Of a stretch of 64,000 nucleotides of DNA, positions 128-31,672 are shown in pieces. Location: NCBI GenBank assembly GCA_026134085.1, contig JAOQIN010000003.1, forward strand, positions 31,335 to 95,334. The letters run 5' to 3'. Made by a program: the position numbers and the translations under genes. The stretch comes from Candidatus Methanoxibalbensis ujae. Lineage in GTDB: Archaea > Halobacteriota > Syntropharchaeia > Alkanophagales > Methanospirareceae. Position 1 is the first letter of the stretch. Each line of letters opens with the position of its first letter. The notes beneath the pieces are model-generated. The model was not told the origin of the DNA. It searched no databases and was given only the letters and a program-made list of their open reading frames with translations.

Positions 128-1594
128 TTACTCATATTTATCCCTCAATTTACTCTTACTCATTTGATCAGGCTTTCTGAAGTTCGCAGTGTAATTCTTT
201 TTCCTGCCGCAGCTCTCAATGAATTCAAAGCCCTGCTTTTCAGCCAACAAACGGACAACCGGCAAAGGTAAAAAGTCAGGGTCTCCCGGCTGTTCTGTGA
301 TGGATAATAAACCGGAGGGTTTTAAGACTCTGTATATAGCACCCAAACACCTTTCCTTATCTGAAACTTCACCTAAAACTGCAACGAGAAAGACAACATC
401 AAATTCATTCTCATCAAACGGAAGATCAACAGCATCTCCCTGAGTAAATCCAACATTATGCAGACCCGCCGACTGAATCTTACGACGTGCTTTTTCAAGC
501 ATCTCTTTTTGCAAGTCAAACAATTCCAGATGTCCCTGCGGTATGCGCCGTGCAACTTCAACACTGAAGTAGCCGGGACCAGGACCTATCTCAAGCACAT
601 TGAAATCCTCTTTGAGATGAAGCCTATCAGCCAGCTTCTGGGGAGAAAGAATAAGTCTCCGCAAAGGAAAATCCAACCAGAAGGATATTTGAGAGGGATA
701 AGTCCCCTTGCCGAAAAAACGCCTTAGGATCCCCTTCTCCGCTGATCTCATTTGGCAGCCTCTTATACGGGTCAAAGTTTTCGGTCCAAAAATGAGCGTT
801 ATTACCACTGATAAAATAATAATCAAAATCAGACTGTATAGCCTGCCCTGCTCTGTCAATGGAATGAGATTTCCACTGAAATTGCACATGAAGTGAAAAA
901 GTATAGCGGAGAGAGTGCTGCGGTTGGTGTTGTTGTAAATCCAGGTGAATAGAATTGAAAGAAAGATTGGGCTGAAAATAAACGTCCAGAAATCCAATGT
1001 GCCAAATTTTAACACATCGTGCTGCCACTGTCCTTTCATGAAGAAAAGGGGAAGATGCCACAATGCCCATACCACGCCCAAGAGAAGGCTTGAGAAAAGG
1101 GCATTATACCTTGCCTGCAAGCCATCCAGAGCATAACCACGCCAGCCCAGCTCTTCTGGTAATGGTCCATAGAGCAGGATAAAAACGGCAAAAGGAAGAA
1201 TTCTCCATGGTTCAAACAGCAGATTTCTGGCTGTTTCAAACTCAGGCCACGGTGAGCCTGCAAGAACGCTTAACAGAAGGGCAAGAGTGTTCAGCACAGG
1301 AAATGTGAGCCAGATGACCAGATGCCATCTTTTACCAATCCGCCTGATGTCAAATACACGCTGCCAGTAATCTCTCCATTCTTCTTTATCGTGGGTGCGA
1401 GAGATTAAGATGATTTCCGCAATTGCAGGGCCGAACAACCCAAGGGCACCGAGAACTATTGCTGGGAATGTAAAGACATTCCAGCCCAGCAATATAACCC
1501 ATATCCAGAAGAACCATGAAATGCCAAGGGCCAGAGTAAAAAACCGCCATGGATTTGCAGCTTTTGAGTTTTTTGTGCTCATTATTTTATCCAT
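128..1594 (-). CDS. Fusion: CPBP/CAAX-type intramembrane metalloprotease + class I SAM methyltransferase
   Basis: PEELGWRGYAL and WHLPLFF motifs with TM segments in N-half; VLEIGPGPGYFSVEVARR / DVVFLVAVLGEV / RVLKPSGLLSITE in C-half; single 488-aa ORF. Confidence 0.8.
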   Translation of the reverse strand: MDKIMSTKNSKAANPWRFFTLALGISWFFWIWVILLGWNVFTFPAIVLGALGLFGPAIAEIILISRTHDKEEWRDYWQRVFDIRRIGKRWHLVIWLTFPVLNTLALLLSVLAGSPWPEFETARNLLFEPWRILPFAVFILLYGPLPEELGWRGYALDGLQARYNALFSSLLLGVVWALWHLPLFFMKGQWQHDVLKFGTLDFWTFIFSPIFLSILFTWIYNNTNRSTLSAILFHFMCNFSGNLIPLTEQGRLYSLILIIILSVVITLIFGPKTLTRIRGCQMRSAEKGILRRFFGKGTYPSQISFWLDFPLRRLILSPQKLADRLHLKEDFNVLEIGPGPGYFSVEVARRIPQGHLELFDLQKEMLEKARRKIQSAGLHNVGFTQGDAVDLPFDENEFDVVFLVAVLGEVSDKERCLGAIYRVLKPSGLLSITEQPGDPDFLPLPVVRLLAEKQGFEFIESCGRKKNYTANFRKPDQMSKSKLRDKYE

Positions 1595-2366: not shown

Positions 2367-2436
2367 ATATAACAATTTGCAGGTATGCGAAGTGCCGCAG
2401 GCATTTGAGTGGGCAAAGCGAACCCGCCTGTTATAC
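2367..2436 (-). repeat. attC-like site 2
   Basis: ATATAAC ... GTTATAC cores, inner GAAGTGCCGCAGGCATTTGAG. Confidence 0.75.
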
Positions 2437-2508
2437 GATCCGAACGAAGTGAGGACGAGGAGCGAAGCGACGAAGCGTTCCGCCCAAAGCTCCATGAAAT
2501 CTTATGTT

Positions 2509-3291
2509 CTACCATATTAAAATCTCCCCATATGTTATTTTTGTCCCCTTTTCAGCAGTTTTTGTTTTTTTAAGTATTATTTTGCGTATATGTCTTAAAT
2601 ATTCTTCTCTGAATATCACAAATCCATTATCAAATTTAATGAAATTTTTATTGAACACATCTAACGCATTTTTGCATTTTACCTTGGTAGTTTCTCTTAC
2701 GCGAGGATTCAAAATTTTACTTTTTAATTCATTTACATCAATAACTAGGTATGGAACTTCCACAACAATATCGGCATGAGTTTGTTGCCTTTTCGTAAAT
2801 CTACGATTCGAGGCTTCTCGCCTATAAGACACTTTTTTAACCTGAATAGCGATTTTTATTTTGTTTAATTCCACAATCGCGTCTATTCCCATCATGTCCA
2901 ATTCTGCGGACGAGATTAATTTTTCTTTAAAAAGAGCATTCCATAGGTATTGAAAATGAAACTGGGTAAGAATTGACATCCATATACGATACAACCTTGC
3001 TTTAAATCCCTCTTCAACAAATTGCAAAGAGCATCCATAAAAATACTTTTTTATAAAGTCATAGATATAAGGGTTGAGTTTTTCTCTCCAATAGATCTTA
3101 AAAATTTCATCATAATCCTTAAAATCAGTAGAATCCCAATAATATTTATAGTATATTTCAAGAGGTAACAATTCTCGTGGCAAATCCCGCTCAACAGTTT
3201 TTATTTGTCTCAGATGTGCATATTTTTGTACCTCTATGTTTTTGAGAAAATCTACGAGTTTCTTTAAGTCTACTTTCCAGTTTCTTACCAT
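2509..3291 (-). CDS. Type II restriction endonuclease, TaqI-like
   Basis: 260 aa; ELDMMGIDAIVELNKIKIAIQVKKVS PD-(D/E)xK-like core; overlaps cognate methyltransferase gene. Confidence 0.75.
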   Translation of the reverse strand: MVRNWKVDLKKLVDFLKNIEVQKYAHLRQIKTVERDLPRELLPLEIYYKYYWDSTDFKDYDEIFKIYWREKLNPYIYDFIKKYFYGCSLQFVEEGFKARLYRIWMSILTQFHFQYLWNALFKEKLISSAELDMMGIDAIVELNKIKIAIQVKKVSYRREASNRRFTKRQQTHADIVVEVPYLVIDVNELKSKILNPRVRETTKVKCKNALDVFNKNFIKFDNGFVIFREEYLRHIRKIILKKTKTAEKGTKITYGEILIW

Positions 3292-4643
3292 AATAACACC
3301 TCTTTTAATTTTTTAAGTTCTTTTTTTGCAGGCAAAGGAAGCAATTTTAATTGTGTTATATTGAAATGATAAGTTATATCCCTAAACACATCCTTTACAT
3401 ATTTTTTTATTATTTTTGAATTCAAAAATTCAACTACTTCTTCATCAGTGAGATCAAATTGCATATTTGTCAAAGTATGCTTTCTCAATAAATGATAAAC
3501 ATCACCCATCCACGGATACGCCCTGTAATCATATGCAGCACCTACTTGTCCATCTCCCCTGAAACCCAAGCCAACGACTATGTGCGGTTTGTCAAAAAAC
3601 TTTCTTAACTTTGTTTTTTTATTTCTATCTATCCAATATCCAGTCACAGCTTTATAAATCACTTCACCTATTTTCAAGTTCCTCCCATTGAGAACTGGAA
3701 GTAAGTTGTCCTTATTTATTTCCTTTGCCCTGATGATCTCTGAATTATGTTTTATCTCCGGTGTTCTTGGCGATATCTTTATTGTGTATATATCGCCAAC
3801 TCTATAACTGCAAATTTCATCAACCTTCCTGCTAAATTCTGTGGAGAATGACACAACTTCTCCTTTCCAACTGTCATTTCTTGTAATCAGTTTTGGGCTG
3901 CCATTGTTATAATCAAACAACCTCAGCTTACCCCTTTCTGATCTTGTTTTTACAAATTTTAAAACGACAGTAGTCACGTCTGCCTCTGGTTTAAAAACCT
4001 CACCACCCATATATACAAGTTCAATTTCACCTCTTGAAGCGAGAAAACTACGAAGTTTTTTGAACTCATCGAGAATCATGAATGTTGCAGGAACAATAAA
4101 TATAAGTTGGCCATTTTCTTTTAATAATTTTACAGACTTTTCTATGAATGCTCCATAGACATTGTATTTTCCATACCAGGTTTCATATATTTCTTTATAT
4201 TTTCTTTTTGTCTCATTATCTACACGAATGGTATAATGCTCTGATAAGCTTGGAATACCATAGGGTGGATTTCCTATGATTATGTCAAATTTTTCGTCTG
4301 TCTCCCATAGTAAATAATCACTGTGAATGATTTTTATATCCTGTGCGAGGTTGCTCTCATTTATATAATCAATCACCTCTTTATTAATTTCTACACCTAT
4401 TTTTGGGGAGGAATTTTCAAAAATATGCCTCTTAATTCTTTTGATCCCAGACAAAAACTGACAGATTCCGCATGCTGGTTCAAGGATCTTAGCAGTTTGA
4501 GGCAACTCATTTTCATTTATTAGATTTACCATAAAATCAACTATCCACTGAGGCGTGAAAAAAATACCCCAATCTCTCTTTATATGTTTGATTTTGTTGT
4601 TTACTACATTTGCATGAGCCTCAACCTTTGTACTATCCATCAT
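3285..4643 (-). CDS. N6-adenine DNA methyltransferase, M.TaqI-like
   Basis: FFTPQWIVDFMV, ILEPACGICQF, GVEINKE, DYLLWE, GNPPYGI, KYNVYGAFIEKSVKLLKENGQLIFIVPATF, GRNLK, as remembered from the M.TaqI family. Confidence 0.9.
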   Translation of the reverse strand: MMDSTKVEAHANVVNNKIKHIKRDWGIFFTPQWIVDFMVNLINENELPQTAKILEPACGICQFLSGIKRIKRHIFENSSPKIGVEINKEVIDYINESNLAQDIKIIHSDYLLWETDEKFDIIIGNPPYGIPSLSEHYTIRVDNETKRKYKEIYETWYGKYNVYGAFIEKSVKLLKENGQLIFIVPATFMILDEFKKLRSFLASRGEIELVYMGGEVFKPEADVTTVVLKFVKTRSERGKLRLFDYNNGSPKLITRNDSWKGEVVSFSTEFSRKVDEICSYRVGDIYTIKISPRTPEIKHNSEIIRAKEINKDNLLPVLNGRNLKIGEVIYKAVTGYWIDRNKKTKLRKFFDKPHIVVGLGFRGDGQVGAAYDYRAYPWMGDVYHLLRKHTLTNMQFDLTDEEVVEFLNSKIIKKYVKDVFRDITYHFNITQLKLLPLPAKKELKKLKEVLLW

Positions 4644-4713
4644 GATCTTCCTTTATGTAGTATGCTTTTAAAATACTTTTAAATTTTTTATCAGAGTTTC
4701 AGGGCGAAATGTC

Positions 4714-4787
4714 ATATAACCCCGCATATACAACGTTGCGACGAAGTGTGAAGGCAAGGAGTAGCCTTGGCGTCTGTGCTGTGCCAT
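4714..4787 (-). repeat. attC-like site 3 (one degenerate core)
   Basis: ATATAAC core then CGCATATACAACGTTGCGACGAAGTGTGAAGGCAAGGAGTAGCCTTGGCGTCTGTGCTGTGCCAT; closely related to site at 14170-14249. Confidence 0.6.
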
Positions 4788-4848
4788 CTGATGTGCTGTG
4801 CCGTTCTCTGTCATAGCTGAGCAAAAACTCGAGCGAGAAAAACCGCCC

Positions 4849-5124
4849 CTATCTCTGCTGATTGATTGTCATGCAGTTGCTCCACTCGCTCGCTGAAATA
4901 AAATATTGAAATAAAATAGCTAACATAGCAGTCGCAACAGGAAATGTGAGACACCACAATGCGAGAGATACCATCGTAGCTGCCATTATTCCCAATCCAC
5001 CTGAGATAACACCTGCAATACCTGCCGCAACATTTATAAATAAAAAGTCGTTGTAACTGGAAAAGGTGATGGAAAGTGAAGAAAAGGGATCTATATTTGG
5101 TGGTATTTGTCTGTAGTCTTGCAT
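4849..5124 (-). CDS. Small membrane protein, hypothetical
   Basis: 91-aa ORF with hydrophobic segments; overlaps + strand ORF by 49 bp. Confidence 0.4.
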   Translation of the reverse strand: MQDYRQIPPNIDPFSSLSITFSSYNDFLFINVAAGIAGVISGGLGIMAATMVSLALWCLTFPVATAMLAILFQYFISASEWSNCMTINQQR

Positions 5125-5450
5125 CTAACCTACTCGTTCAGCTCACTCCCTCAGTAAACTGGCCCCCAATTTTTTATGTATTCATCATAACACTTTTCAC
5201 AACACTCCTCTCCCTTTATCTGCTCATTCTCAATGGCATATTCATGAAACTCTCCAAAGCCGGACTGTTCCTTTTTCTTCTGATATTCCCCCTCATAATG
5301 TTCTTTACGTTTTGGTTCGGTCTGTGGGGTTATTGTGATTTGCTGAATCTGAGCAAAACAGGTGATTGCGTACTTGTAGCTCTGATAGTCCTTCCTGTCA
5401 CAATTGCTGTCGCTGTGGTTGGTCCGATCCTTACGATTTTAAGGAAGTAA
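5076..5450 (+). CDS. Small membrane protein, hypothetical
   Basis: 124-aa ORF with TM segments. Confidence 0.5.
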   Translation: MKKRDLYLVVFVCSLASNLLVQLTPSVNWPPIFYVFIITLFTTLLSLYLLILNGIFMKLSKAGLFLFLLIFPLIMFFTFWFGLWGYCDLLNLSKTGDCVLVALIVLPVTIAVAVVGPILTILRK

Positions 5451-5552
5451 TGAGATGCTAAGAGCATGATATTTTCGCCCATAAATTAAGAGGTATTTTG
5501 TAATTTTTTCTGTTGGCCTCTCAGATAAGAAATCTGATATCATAAATAACCC

Positions 5553-6278
5553 CTATGTATATCTACTTGTTTCATTTGTTACCTCATCCATTTTATCCAG
5601 ATCATTCTGTTGAAATTGTTTCATAAACTGTTCCATCGGGAAGGGCTTTCCATGCCCCGGAGTTTTTATTCTCAACTTTTTCAGTTTCTTGACACTTTCA
5701 TTTGCTACTGTTAAGTCGTCCATAATAGAGCTGAGAACTGGTTTGTCTTTATTTTCAAGCAGATCTCCGCAAAAAAGATCGCCATCTGCTGTCAGTATTC
5801 CTATTGAACCTTTTGAGTTCCCGGGAATATGAAGAACTTTTGCATTGAATCCGTATTCAGTGAGATCATATCCCTCATCAATACATAAATCCGGTTTGAA
5901 TCGCTCCTTTTTGCCAAATCTGAACAGGATGCGAGCCATCATTCCAAGGAGAACATTGCCTTTTCTCCTGTTCCAGAACATGTCTCCACGTTCGCTCATT
6001 CCCGAATCACCATGATGCATCGCTATCCCTGCACCGAACTTTTCACGGAGATGAGCTGCATTGCCTGTGTGGTCAAAATCTCCATGGGTTAAAACGATAA
6101 GTTTGAGATTGCCGGGTTTACACCCCGCTTTTTCAAGTTCTTTTTCAAGTTCGGCGCGCTTATTTGAACATGCTGTGTCGATCAGGATATAGCCGGTGTC
6201 GGTTTCTATGAGGTAGCAATTTACGGTACCTAACTTATAAGGCAGTGGTAAAGTAATGGTCTTGAGCTTTGTAGACAT
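5553..6278 (-). CDS. MBL-fold metallo-hydrolase
   Basis: LTHGDFDHTGN motif, LHIPGNSKGSIGIL, PGHGKP. Confidence 0.9.
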   Translation of the reverse strand: MSTKLKTITLPLPYKLGTVNCYLIETDTGYILIDTACSNKRAELEKELEKAGCKPGNLKLIVLTHGDFDHTGNAAHLREKFGAGIAMHHGDSGMSERGDMFWNRRKGNVLLGMMARILFRFGKKERFKPDLCIDEGYDLTEYGFNAKVLHIPGNSKGSIGILTADGDLFCGDLLENKDKPVLSSIMDDLTVANESVKKLKKLRIKTPGHGKPFPMEQFMKQFQQNDLDKMDEVTNETSRYT

Positions 6279-6737: not shown

Positions 6738-6806
6738 GCTTAACGTTTCGCGGATAAAAGACGAAGGCTTGGAAATCTTTGATTTCACTTTTATCCGCTG
6801 TTGGGC
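6738..6806 (-). repeat. attC-like site 4
   Basis: GCTTAAC ... GTTGGGC cores; arms CGCGGATAAAAG/CTTTTATCCGC. Confidence 0.85.
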
Positions 6807-7831: not shown

Positions 7832-8466
7832 CAATATCTTCTGATCAGGCAGTCTTCGCATTTGGGATTCCGCGACCTGCAAATTCGCCTTCCAAATTCT
7901 ATCAGTATTGGGTTTTCGTTCTTTGTTTTGGTGGTATCTCAGATTCGAGTTTCGCTCTCAAACTCTCATAATTGTCTCTTTCACCGGCTATTCCCAATCT
8001 TTTCATTATTCTGAAAATGTGAACATCAATGGGTAGTACCTGTTCTCCCTTAATCGCCATTAAAAAGACATCTGCGGTTTTCGGGCCAATTCCCTTTATT
8101 GAGGTCAGTTTTTTCTTTACCTCGTCATAAGGAAGTTTCAATATTTTTATCTTTCCATCGTATTTTTCAACTAAATCTTCGGCGATATTTTTGATTCTTC
8201 TGGCTCTGATCCTATATAAACCCGCCGGTTTAATAACTTTCTCAATCTCTCTCATTTGCCTTTGCCACATCTTCAATGCCATTAAACCTCTCACTAAATC
8301 TTTCAGTGGCAGTTCTCACATTTTTCCAATACATTCGCTGGGAAAGGATTATACTAACCAATGTTTCGAACGGAGTATATCTTTCCCACCACTCGTTGAT
8401 TTTGTATTTCTTAGGATCTCCTCTATCTTTTGAAGTTTTGTTCCCATACTCATCACTTGGCAGCAC
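7832..8466 (-). pseudogene. Endonuclease III-like DNA glycosylase, frameshifted at least twice
   Basis: N-part YTPFETLVSIILSQ (8242-8466), middle LTSIKGIGPKTADVFLMAI (7902-8294), and C-part FGRRICRSRNPKCEDCLIRRYCEN (C-x6-C-x2-C-x5-C) in a third segment; three reading frames joined by indels. Confidence 0.8.
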
Positions 8467-8953: not shown

Positions 8954-9883
8954 TCACACTTTCTTTCTATTTTCCACATTATAAGCACATATTAAATAAT
9001 AAATTACCCATCCCCTGAACTCGCCCCACCTTTCCGTAAATTTTCTAACGGTATCTCCTGATTGAAGTTTTCCGTCAAAGTAGAAGTGTGAAACTGCTTT
9101 TCTGGCTCCGAGGTCATCGGGAACGCAGAGATCCATTCTTCCTAATGTCGTTATCAGTATTAACTCGGCAGTCCACCTTCCGATTCCCTTAAATTTCATC
9201 AACTCTTCAATTGCTCCCTCATTACCCAATCTTTTAATTTTCTCCAAATCGTATCCATCGGCAACTTTCAGTGCGAGTTCTTTGATGTATCTGGCTTTCT
9301 GACGGGATAACTTACACTTCCTCAATTCGTTCTCATCGGCATTTGCCAACACTTGAGGTGAAGGAAAATCGTAATATGGTTCGCCATCGATTTCTATTTT
9401 CTCTCCGAATCTTTTGACCAATTCCCCAGTCATGACATAGGCAACCCGTAAAGAAATCTGCTGCTGGATTATCACTCTGATCGCTCCCTCAAATATACTC
9501 GCCCCGATTCCCGGCGGTCTCAGACCGTAAAGTTCTTTCTTTATCTTACGAAGTATCTCATCTTGTTCCATAAAATCATACAATGCTCTGAGGTCATCTC
9601 TCAATCTAAAAATGTCCGCGATTTTATCCGACAGATATCTCTTCTCTTTCGTATTGAGTTTGGAAAATGCGTTAACCCTCAACTTTGGCTTTTCCACAGT
9701 GCCAACAGAAGTAACCTCCATTGGAACTAATCTATCTCCAATTTTAAAACTCCGTCTCCAAATGCCATCTTTATAAATTTCTGGCTGTGGCTCTTTCGAT
9801 GAAGAATAAAATTTCCACTGCAGATCAAAATCATAGGGCGGAGTTGGTAGGAGTTCGAATGAAGTTTTATCCATGATAATCAC
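8954..9883 (-). CDS. AlkA/OGG-like HhH DNA glycosylase
   Basis: FEGAIRVIIQQQIS, LMKFKGIGRWTAELILITTLGRMDLCVPDDLG HhH-GPD motif. Confidence 0.85.
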   Translation of the reverse strand: MIIMDKTSFELLPTPPYDFDLQWKFYSSSKEPQPEIYKDGIWRRSFKIGDRLVPMEVTSVGTVEKPKLRVNAFSKLNTKEKRYLSDKIADIFRLRDDLRALYDFMEQDEILRKIKKELYGLRPPGIGASIFEGAIRVIIQQQISLRVAYVMTGELVKRFGEKIEIDGEPYYDFPSPQVLANADENELRKCKLSRQKARYIKELALKVADGYDLEKIKRLGNEGAIEELMKFKGIGRWTAELILITTLGRMDLCVPDDLGARKAVSHFYFDGKLQSGDTVRKFTERWGEFRGWVIYYLICAYNVENRKKV

Positions 9884-9961: not shown

Positions 9962-10046
9962 GCCTAACGTTTTGCGGACATACGAAGTTCTGCTTTGCGA
10001 AATTTGGGCGTAGCCGAAGGCGAAGCCACATATCCGCCTGTTGTCC
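9962..10046 (-). repeat. attC-like site 5
   Basis: GCCTAAC ... GTTGTCC; arms GCGGACATA/CATATCCGC; inner GAAGTTCTGC..GAAATTTGG; minus-strand R' reads AACGTTAGGC. Confidence 0.85.
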
Positions 10047-10551: not shown

Positions 10552-10649
10552 GGACAACGTCTGGGGCGTATGCGGAGTTGCGGAGCGAAGCGACGCAATT
10601 TGGGTGTAGCGACCATAAGGGGGCAAAACCGCATACGCACCTGTTGTCC
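10552..10649 (-). repeat. attC-like site 6
   Basis: TCGGACAAC ... GTTGTCCGA (9-bp perfect core complement). Confidence 0.85.
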
Positions 10650-10693: not shown

Positions 10694-11095
10694 TCATATT
10701 TTTTCTTCCTCCATCCATATTTTAAGATAGCTTTTTAACGTTTGAACGAAATTTTTGGCAGTTTCTAACATATCTCTTGCCTCTCCTTCAGTGACGATAA
10801 AACCTATGCCGTAATCCCCTATCAATCTTTTATCATAGGCATCGTTAAGCGTTTTCCTCAAACCTCTATCAAAAATTCCTGTTTTTATAAAGTGTTCTCC
10901 AAATAAACTTATCCAAATAAACCTATCACTCCTTTATGAGAAGAAGCACTCAAGTTCTTGGTAAGAAGTGCCGCTTCTGCCATGAAAAACATCGCATAAT
11001 AGTTGAAACACAGGAATCGTAATCTCCAATATTAAGGGTTTGTTCTGCTGTTTTTAGAAATTTCCTTTTTCTATGAAATCCTTTATCTCCTTCAT
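10694..11095 (-). pseudogene. HEPN-domain toxin-like protein, frameshifted
   Basis: Pieces [69 protein letters not shown] in different frames; start overlaps end of MNT gene. Confidence 0.75.
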
Positions 11096-11412
11096 ATCCT
11101 TATCCCCTCTTTCCTCACATTTATTACAAATGGATAATTATAGTTTTCAAAGAAGGTCTTAGGAAGAGCAATAACCGAAACAAGTTCTCCCTTCTCAAGT
11201 AATATGTCAAACAGAAGGTCACTCAAACTTCTCCTCACCTCAAAGGGATCAATTGAATCATCAATGAGCACAAGTAAATCTATGTCTGAATCTTTTGTCG
11301 CTTCGCCTCTCGCATGAGAACCATAAAGAATAATCTTTTTAATCTTATCTCTATATCTTTCTATCAGATGACATTTCACTTGATTTACCAGTTGAGTTAT
11401 TCTCTTATCCAT
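11092..11412 (-). CDS. MNT-type minimal nucleotidyltransferase (HEPN-MNT toxin-antitoxin partner)
   Basis: IILYGSHARGEATKDSDIDLLVLID. Confidence 0.9.
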   Translation of the reverse strand: MDKRITQLVNQVKCHLIERYRDKIKKIILYGSHARGEATKDSDIDLLVLIDDSIDPFEVRRSLSDLLFDILLEKGELVSVIALPKTFFENYNYPFVINVRKEGIRI

Positions 11413-11445: not shown

Positions 11446-11519
11446 GGACAACGTTCTGGTATGTGAAGTTTTGCCTTGCGAAATTTGCACGAGCGTTAGC
11501 GAGCCACCTCCTGTTAGCA
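11446..11519 (-). repeat. attC-like site 7
   Basis: GGACAAC ... GTTAGCA cores, inner GAAGTTTTGCCTTGCGAAATTTG. Confidence 0.75.
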
Positions 11520-12551: not shown

Positions 12552-12636
12552 ATCTAACATATCGCAAATATGCGAAGTTTGGCGTAAGCCAAATTTGGCA
12601 ATCTTTGATTGCGAAACCACATATTTGCTGTTATGT
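12552..12636 (-). repeat. attC-like site 8
   Basis: ATCTAAC ... GTTATGT; arms GCAAATATG/CATATTTGC; inner GAAGTTTGGCGTAAGCCAAATTTGG. Confidence 0.85.
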
Positions 12637-13401: not shown

Positions 13402-13497
13402 ACATAACGTCCCCGGTGTATCTGAGTATCTGAAGTCCGCCGAAGGTGGATTTGGGCAGGTGCTGTAAGGCACGAAGCCAGATACGCTCTGTTAGCG
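13402..13497 (-). repeat. attC-like site 9
   Basis: ACATAAC ... GTTAGCG; inner GAAGTCCGCCGAAGGTGGATTTGGG. Confidence 0.75.
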
Positions 13498-14121: not shown

Positions 14122-14169
14122 TTTTATTACCTCCTTTATTACCTCCTTATTTTATATTTACAATCCGAG

Positions 14170-14249
14170 GATGTCTCCAGCATATACGACGTTGCGACGA
14201 AGTGTCCTGAAGGGCAAGGCGTAGCCGTGGCGTATATGCTGTGTTATCT
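14170..14249 (-). repeat. attC-like site 10 (one degenerate core)
   Basis: AGCATATACG ... CGTATATGCT perfect 10-bp arms, GTTATCT core. Confidence 0.65.
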
Positions 14250-22584: not shown

Positions 22585-22674
22585 TAGCGGGGGATGGATT
22601 CGAACCATCGATCTCCGGGTTTCTCCGCCTGCGCTTATGAGCCCGACGGGATATCCTGACTACCCCACCCCGCT
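22585..22674 (-). tRNA. Initiator-type tRNA-Met (CAU) with a 15-nt intron at 37/38
   Basis: RC AGCGGGGTGGGGTAGTCAGGATATCCCGTCGGGCTCATA[AGCGCAGGCGGAGAA]ACCCGGAGATCGATGGTTCGAATCCATCCCCCGCTA; A1-U72 and three G-C pairs 29-31/39-41. Confidence 0.95.
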
Positions 22675-30901: not shown

Positions 30902-31672
30902 ATGCTTTTTTATCAAAAAAACCGCTTTTCAGATATGGCACGCAGGATACCGAGATTGATGTTGGGCACCTCGCCCTTCATAGGGGCTGCGCAGTTTGGC
31001 AGGAGAGCACATGAATATCGCATGAGATTTTTCCATAACGAAGAAAACATGGTGGAAATTTTTGTGAAATCAGCAGAATATGGTGTGAAGGCTGTGCAGT
31101 TGATTGTTTATGAGCCTCTTGTCAATGCCCTGAAAAGGGCTGAAATGGATACGGGCGATGATTTTTTTGTTGTTGCAACAGTGACAGGCAGCAGATTTGA
31201 GCATGATTTGAGTGTTTTGGAGGACATCAATCCCGAAATTATCGCAGTTCATGCGCTTTTCTGCGATTCACTTGACGAGCGGATAGGGGGATGGACCGCG
31301 AAAATAAGAGATGTTGGAGCAATTCCAGCTGCGGCAACACATATTCCTGGAGACACGATACCCGAAATGGACAGAGCAGGGTATGATGTTGAGTTCTACC
31401 TCGCACCGCTGAACCCTGTGGGGTATGCGATGCTTCCTGACTTTGAAAGTGCGATAAGAGCTATTAAAATGACTGATAAGGGAATAATAGCGATAAAGCC
31501 GCTCGCAGCCGGAAATATCAGGCCGGATCGTGAGGTGTTTTCCTTCATATTCAAATATGCGGATGCTGTGAGTGTGGGCGTAACATCAGATGGCGAGATG
31601 AGGGAGACATTTTCGGCTGCCCGCGCCGCAGAGGCGAAAGACGAGCGCAACTGGAGGGTGACTGAGATATGA
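30902..31672 (+). CDS. TIM-barrel protein, function unknown
   Basis: 256-aa ORF PRLMLGTSPFIGAAQFGRRA..., GIIAIKPLAAGNIRP; overlaps hisC start. Confidence 0.65.
   Translation: MLFYQKNRFSDMARRIPRLMLGTSPFIGAAQFGRRAHEYRMRFFHNEENMVEIFVKSAEYGVKAVQLIVYEPLVNALKRAEMDTGDDFFVVATVTGSRFEHDLSVLEDINPEIIAVHALFCDSLDERIGGWTAKIRDVGAIPAAATHIPGDTIPEMDRAGYDVEFYLAPLNPVGYAMLPDFESAIRAIKMTDKGIIAIKPLAAGNIRPDREVFSFIFKYADAVSVGVTSDGEMRETFSAARAAEAKDERNWRVTEI

Follow-up and report, generated by a model that had tools for sequence, protein, structure and literature searches.

Gene content and organization make it very probable that a chromosomal attC array of an ANME-1 archaeon holds, as one integron-type cassette, a two-gene Type II restriction-modification (R-M) system of the TaqI kind that is most likely specific for TCGA. 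The cassette spans 2.35 kb on the minus strand (2373–4719) and comprises a leader, the methyltransferase gene (M), the endonuclease gene (R), a 3′ element and an attC site. Coordinates refer to the window, the whole 64,000-nucleotide stretch analysed, unless another contig or locus is named. The window covers positions 31,335–95,334 of contig C23 (95 kb) in a metagenome-assembled genome (MAG) of 2.0 Mb that is 89% complete and whose host is presumed to belong to the ANME-1 (Methanophagales) family.

The restriction-modification gene pair

M and R form a two-gene operon on the minus strand, with the genes overlapping by 7 nt (ATGGTAA). From its open reading frame and homology, M (3285–4643) encodes a 452-aa TaqI-type adenine-N6 DNA methyltransferase with a TaqI_C specificity domain (PF12950, 73.8 bits). 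It is a full-length homologue of M.TaqI in searches against the structures of that enzyme (phmmer, E 7.7e-78, 265 bits, residues 23–437), with LEPACG at residue 54 and NPPY at residue 125. NPPY, TaqI_C and full-length homology were thus all found, in agreement with the M.TaqI-like layout given in a preliminary description of this DNA. The nearest full-length M proteins are mostly bacterial, and phage matches were limited to more distant methyltransferases (Thermus phage phiLo, 38%).

R (2509–3291) encodes a 260-aa TaqI-type restriction endonuclease, as indicated by its open reading frame, family profiles, conservation and a structural model. It matches the Pfam family RE_TaqI (PF09573) over nearly the whole profile with 201.1 bits against a curated cut-off of 26.1 (residues 9–238 on profile positions 1–228 of 229), and PADLOC REase_II with 188 bits. 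An alignment of 18 R proteins shows a conserved catalytic region with invariant D132, G135, D137, Q150, K153, S155, R157 and E159. In the predicted structure (pLDDT 89), D137 directly precedes strand 138–142, and strand 145–155 carries Q150 and K152/K153; this modelled placement is as expected for a PD-(D/E)xK-like core. A fold search with the model returned weak matches, mostly to nucleases of the PD-(D/E)xK kind. Searches with R gave no relevant match among PDB sequences and no match among plasmids (tblastn). The full-length family matches uphold the earlier identification of both reading frames as a TaqI-like R-M pair, and the conserved catalytic region bears out the PD-(D/E)xK core ascribed to R.

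Family membership and the avoidance pattern described below predict that M would methylate the adenine of TCGA and that R would cleave TCGA sites that lack this methylation in invading DNA. As M comes first and R overlaps it, a captured cassette would bring protection and cutting together.

Avoidance of TCGA in this genome and in related hosts

Composition was analysed in 387 kb of stretches from the MAG, where TCGA occurs 284 times against 1072 expected (0.26); CTAG is the only palindromic tetranucleotide avoided more strongly. Within C23 the observed/expected ratio is 0.12 in housekeeping DNA versus 0.50 in the array. This is the strongest TCGA avoidance among the ANME-1 genomes sampled, with relatives lacking R at 0.43–0.98 and genome G012, which carries a second clade of R, at 0.57. 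Summed over eleven close relatives from other phyla (L029, L031–L033, L035–L039, L041 and L042), the DNA flanking the R-M genes contains 24 TCGA against 185 expected (0.13); ratios for other tetranucleotides in the same DNA are 0.76 (CCGG), 0.71 (GTAC), 0.64 (ACGT) and 0.41 (GATC). TCGA is absent altogether from the Kryptonia, Aquificaceae, Thermotogota and two WOR-3 loci, and a locus with M and no detected R (L046) has 34 TCGA against 38 expected. There are exceptions: L035 and L039 carry R yet show little depletion, L051 is depleted yet has no detected R, and depletion is weaker in the second R clade.

The avoidance in this genome and in the hosts of relatives from several bacterial phyla supports TCGA as the target and activity of the system in the past. 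The preliminary description had predicted TCGA by homology; the comparison of its frequency with expectation (0.12–0.26 in this genome) and the pattern in close relatives both agree with that prediction. TCGA avoidance nevertheless has other causes too, since ANME-1 genome G008 reaches 0.43 without R and ACGT is also avoided. ACGT avoidance is as strong as that of TCGA in this genome (0.14–0.31) and is seen in G008 (0.22), though not in most other ANME-1 genomes; a further restriction system may lie behind it.

These observations bear on whether the pair, while a cassette, is now an inactive relic, with the TCGA avoidance left by older or other systems. The array is less depleted of TCGA (0.50) than the remainder of its contig, ACGT avoidance shows that other forces act, and the attC upstream of the cassette is decayed. 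Moreover, the cassette is AT-rich (GC 34%) and therefore may postdate the genome-wide avoidance. Against this stand two intact reading frames with conserved catalytic residues, the strongest TCGA avoidance of the sampled ANME-1 genomes, and near-full avoidance in the hosts of the closest relatives. We consider an inactive relic improbable, albeit worth keeping in mind, and favor a system that has acted on its host.

Boundaries of the cassette

Integron recombination takes place at G^TT cores, and this rule was used to infer the exact ends of the cassette, whose extent was established by homology to a copy in an Aminicenantes contig (L031). The first base of the cassette is the T that follows G in the upstream core (G^TTATAT), and the last is the G of the core within its own attC. 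Its attC (site 2; 2367–2436, minus strand), detected with covariance models at 37 bits, is intact, with R″ GTATAAC at 2430–2436 and R′ GTTATAT at 2367–2373. The attC of the preceding cassette (site 3; 4714–4790, minus strand) was recognized by eye. Its R′ (GTTATAT, 4714–4720) and L′ are intact, R″ is eroded and reads AGATGGC, and the covariance models did not call the site. Its position is nonetheless confirmed because the Aminicenantes homology begins exactly at 4720.

Between the R stop codon and R″ lies a GC-rich element (GGGCGGAACGCTTCGTCGC...TTCGGATC; 2437–2486, minus strand) common to the Aminicenantes and WOR-3 copies. GC-rich, stem-forming segments occur between gene stop and R″ at many sites of the array, this one included, and may act as terminators or be extensions of attC sites of this type. 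The leader upstream of M (4644–4713, minus strand), read by eye, has AT-rich TATA-like runs and AAGGA before the ATG. It is possible that it supplies its own promoter and ribosome site, which may permit expression without an outside promoter.

The pair therefore has a single attC 3′ of its genes and ends at G^TT cores, as an integron gene cassette does. The earlier view that the pair is bracketed by attC-like sites holds in that site 2 is intact and site 3 is real, with the reservation that site 3 is half-eroded. Likewise, the pair is one cassette as claimed, but its proper limits are 2373–4719, slightly off the 2436–4787 first given.

Copies in bacteria and archaea

The strongest evidence for cassette status, which the preliminary description had already proposed, is cassette-exact homology in a bacterium. 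In L031, an attC (3547–3637) is followed by M and R (3699–5842) and a second attC (5916–5997). DNA homology between the window and L031 extends from 4720 to 2429 (74.1% over 2315 columns), so that it opens with the initial G of the upstream GTTATAT and closes one base past R″, and the bodies of the flanking attC sites differ between the two. Homology that ends at the cores is the pattern left by cassette exchange at G^TT cores. Because a bacterium carries this cassette with identical edges, integron-type shuffling has probably moved this antiviral system between domains of life. A WOR-3 copy on a 257-kb contig (L029) has the leader and the GC-rich 3′ element in common with the window and looks as if it terminates in a decayed attC.

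RE_TaqI was found in only two of 295 genomes sampled from the phylum, the window genome and a second ANME-1 MAG (L049 in G012), and in both the pair is bracketed by attC sites. The L049 pair, between attC sites at 3031–3092 and 5369–5461 of that locus, is a different and more distant TaqI-type pair. Two separate acquisitions are likely, judging from the M tree, in which L049 lies far from the window protein. Other relatives, e.g., L032, L034, L037 and L039, carry the pair without an adjacent attC, so it also travels by other means.

The attC array and its genomic setting

Two covariance models were used, the first built from six sites of the array zone and a later, broader one from 31 sites. 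They place nine attC sites within 1–14.25 kb of the window, all on the gene strand, the weakest with E 0.27, and none from 16 to 64 kb; sites on C23 are confined to an AT-rich zone. Besides the cassette’s own attC, these are, all on the minus strand, a neighboring site at 1–71 that begins 11 bases before the window, a second neighbor at 6738–6806 (GCCCAAC...GTTAAGC), sites at 9962–10046, 10552–10649 and 12552–12636, a weak attC-like site at 11446–11518 (E 0.27), an attC-like site at 13402–13496 (E 0.009), and one at 14169–14249 (E 0.0009) that is the final one before housekeeping genes. A typical site reads RYYYAAC-A(G)-GCGGATATG ... ACTTCGCATATCCGC-AAAAC-GTTRRRY, with outer core bases departing at times. 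Two-sided changes were seen in 12 of 16 pairs, and slid pairings performed far worse, in an alignment that was itself fitted to the structure. With at least two co-oriented attC sites and no intI, the array has the composition of a CALIN, as assessed with our own covariance models rather than IntegronFinder.

The array zone lies between blocks of housekeeping genes, is AT-rich (39% versus 47% GC) and has genes mostly on the minus strand. Archaeal housekeeping genes, e.g., the replication factor C large subunit and SepS, fill the window from 16 kb, and C23 before about 24 kb carries hydrogenase and other housekeeping genes. Outside C23, the first model (E up to 1) found 17 further places in this genome, clustered on C12, C1, C4, C26 and C59 and single on C7, C22 and C70. 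The first model also matches 33 of 51 ANME-1 genomes; two relatives supplied six control stretches of 20 kb (L089, L093–L095, L097 and L098), none of which gave an attC.

Several neighboring genes were noted. A single open reading frame at 128–1594 (minus strand), in the neighboring cassette, combines a class I methyltransferase domain with a CAAX-protease-like membrane domain (PF02517), which is an unusual fusion. A small nucleotidyltransferase in the array (11092–11412, minus strand) matches the PADLOC candidate defense family PDC-S09 (108 bits) and could be one component of a toxin-antitoxin pair. Two further genes, each recognized by eye from the reading frames, share a single long stretch bounded by attC sites: an endonuclease III-like gene split across two frames (7902–8466, minus strand) and a 309-aa DNA-glycosylase-like reading frame (8954–9883, minus strand). 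A tRNA gene (22585–22674, minus strand; Rfam 50.8 bits) has an anticodon loop that ARAGORN left unassigned (‘cata’).

The pair might instead be an ordinary horizontally acquired R-M system in a genomic island, its palindromes being unrelated repeats, e.g., terminators or REP-like elements, and no integron-type movement having occurred. The relatives without an adjacent attC fit this account, as does a scan of the window for AAC...GTT palindromes, which gave 28 versus 8–24 in simulated sequence, little or no excess over chance; it is the aligned covariance models, unlike the simple palindrome scan, that separate the array sites from chance. However, such an island would be hard to reconcile with L031 homology that ends exactly at the cores of attC sites whose bodies differ, with RYYYAAC/GTTRRRY cores on a single strand that show two-sided pair changes, or with the bracketing of another clade of the same R-M kind in L049. 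We therefore regard it as quite unlikely and retain the integron-type cassette as the preferred reading. That the array is bacterial DNA misbinned into an archaeal genome, as could be imagined for a MAG whose nearest full-length M proteins are mostly bacterial, is highly improbable given the recurrence of the attC model across ANME-1 genomes, and contamination was rejected because archaeal genes flank the array in both directions within its 95-kb contig (SepS and the replication factor C large subunit; hydrogenase genes upstream).

Candidate recombinases

Neither an IntI nor an intact attC-associated recombinase was found in this 89% complete assembly. No protein exceeded the IntI cut-off in 51 ANME-1 genomes, and the IntI-specific region of a complete integron was not found. 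The best match to the IntI model in this genome (33 bits versus a cut-off of 265) comes from a frameshifted remnant on C7 that has an attC about 1.2 kb away. We rejected this match as an IntI remnant; comparison groups it with XerA-type ANME-1 proteins.

XerA-type tyrosine recombinases adjoin attC sites, co-oriented with them, in many ANME-1 genomes and in the Aminicenantes contig, and are mostly frameshifted (L102–L108, L007 on the C7 of this genome, and L031:2235–2612). The recombinase of L087 is XerA-type by NCBIfam (256.6 bits, cut-off 220) and scores 238.8 with the integron-integrase model versus a cut-off of 265; that of G018 has about 14 residues versus 55 positions in the integron model. 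Nine recombinase-attC pairs lie within 5 kb of each other versus about 1.2 expected, and eight are co-oriented. On G018:C14 (L102, 9024–15820), a recombinase with an open catalytic domain has at least five attC sites after it on the same strand, in an apparently complete array. A related broken recombinase lies upstream of the TaqI cassette in the Aminicenantes contig (2235–2612).

The cassette would enter and leave arrays through a tyrosine recombinase acting at attC, none being intact in this assembly. Because of the nine attC pairs, the G018 array and the L031 remnant, the XerA-type recombinase is a serious candidate for the cassette mover, with most copies broken. More tentatively, and at odds that we place well short of even, ANME-1, and bacteria such as Aminicenantes that have these cassettes in common with it, may run an integron-like system in which a XerA-type recombinase without the IntI-specific region moved the TaqI cassette across domains.

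Relation to known systems and significance

The pair resembles the TaqI system of Thermus in that both proteins are full-length homologues, M carries TaqI_C, the catalytic region of R is conserved and genomic signs point to TCGA specificity. It differs in its archaeal host and attC-bounded cassette. Archaeal integrons and CALINs, with cross-domain cassette exchange, have already been published (Ghaly et al. 2022, PMC9668308) and share with our array the co-oriented archaeal attC sites and R-M cassettes; by comparison, the ANME-1 array has no IntI. Methylation and restriction functions account for 8.3% of annotated archaeal integron cassette proteins in that work (PMC9668308), so R-M cassettes are not very unusual, which weakens the preliminary description’s remark on the rarity of bicistronic cassettes; its suggestion that R-M selfishness could stabilize an array is likewise among its weaker points. 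The main text of PMC9668308 makes no mention of ANME. Bacterial integron defense cassettes of Xanthomonas (PMC12444791) likewise include antiviral systems, R-M among them, in bacterial arrays with canonical IntI; that paper cites 2025 work on Vibrio and mobile integrons. We found no description of a TaqI-type cassette, or of base-exact R-M cassette homology between an archaeon and a bacterium, in the non-subscription literature searched. The TaqI type, the ANME-1 host and the cassette-exact cross-domain homology thus appear to be new.

In one archaeon and one bacterium, the limits of an R-M system as an integron cassette can be drawn almost to the base. The case shows how R-M systems can pass between domains in ready-to-use form, with the methyltransferase leading. 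The avoidance of TCGA is a sequence-level sign of captured enzymes acting on their hosts. With these findings, attC arrays are seen in ANME-1 as well, one of the major groups that oxidize methane anaerobically; the XerA-type recombinases beside attC sites would make integron function without a canonical IntI directly testable.
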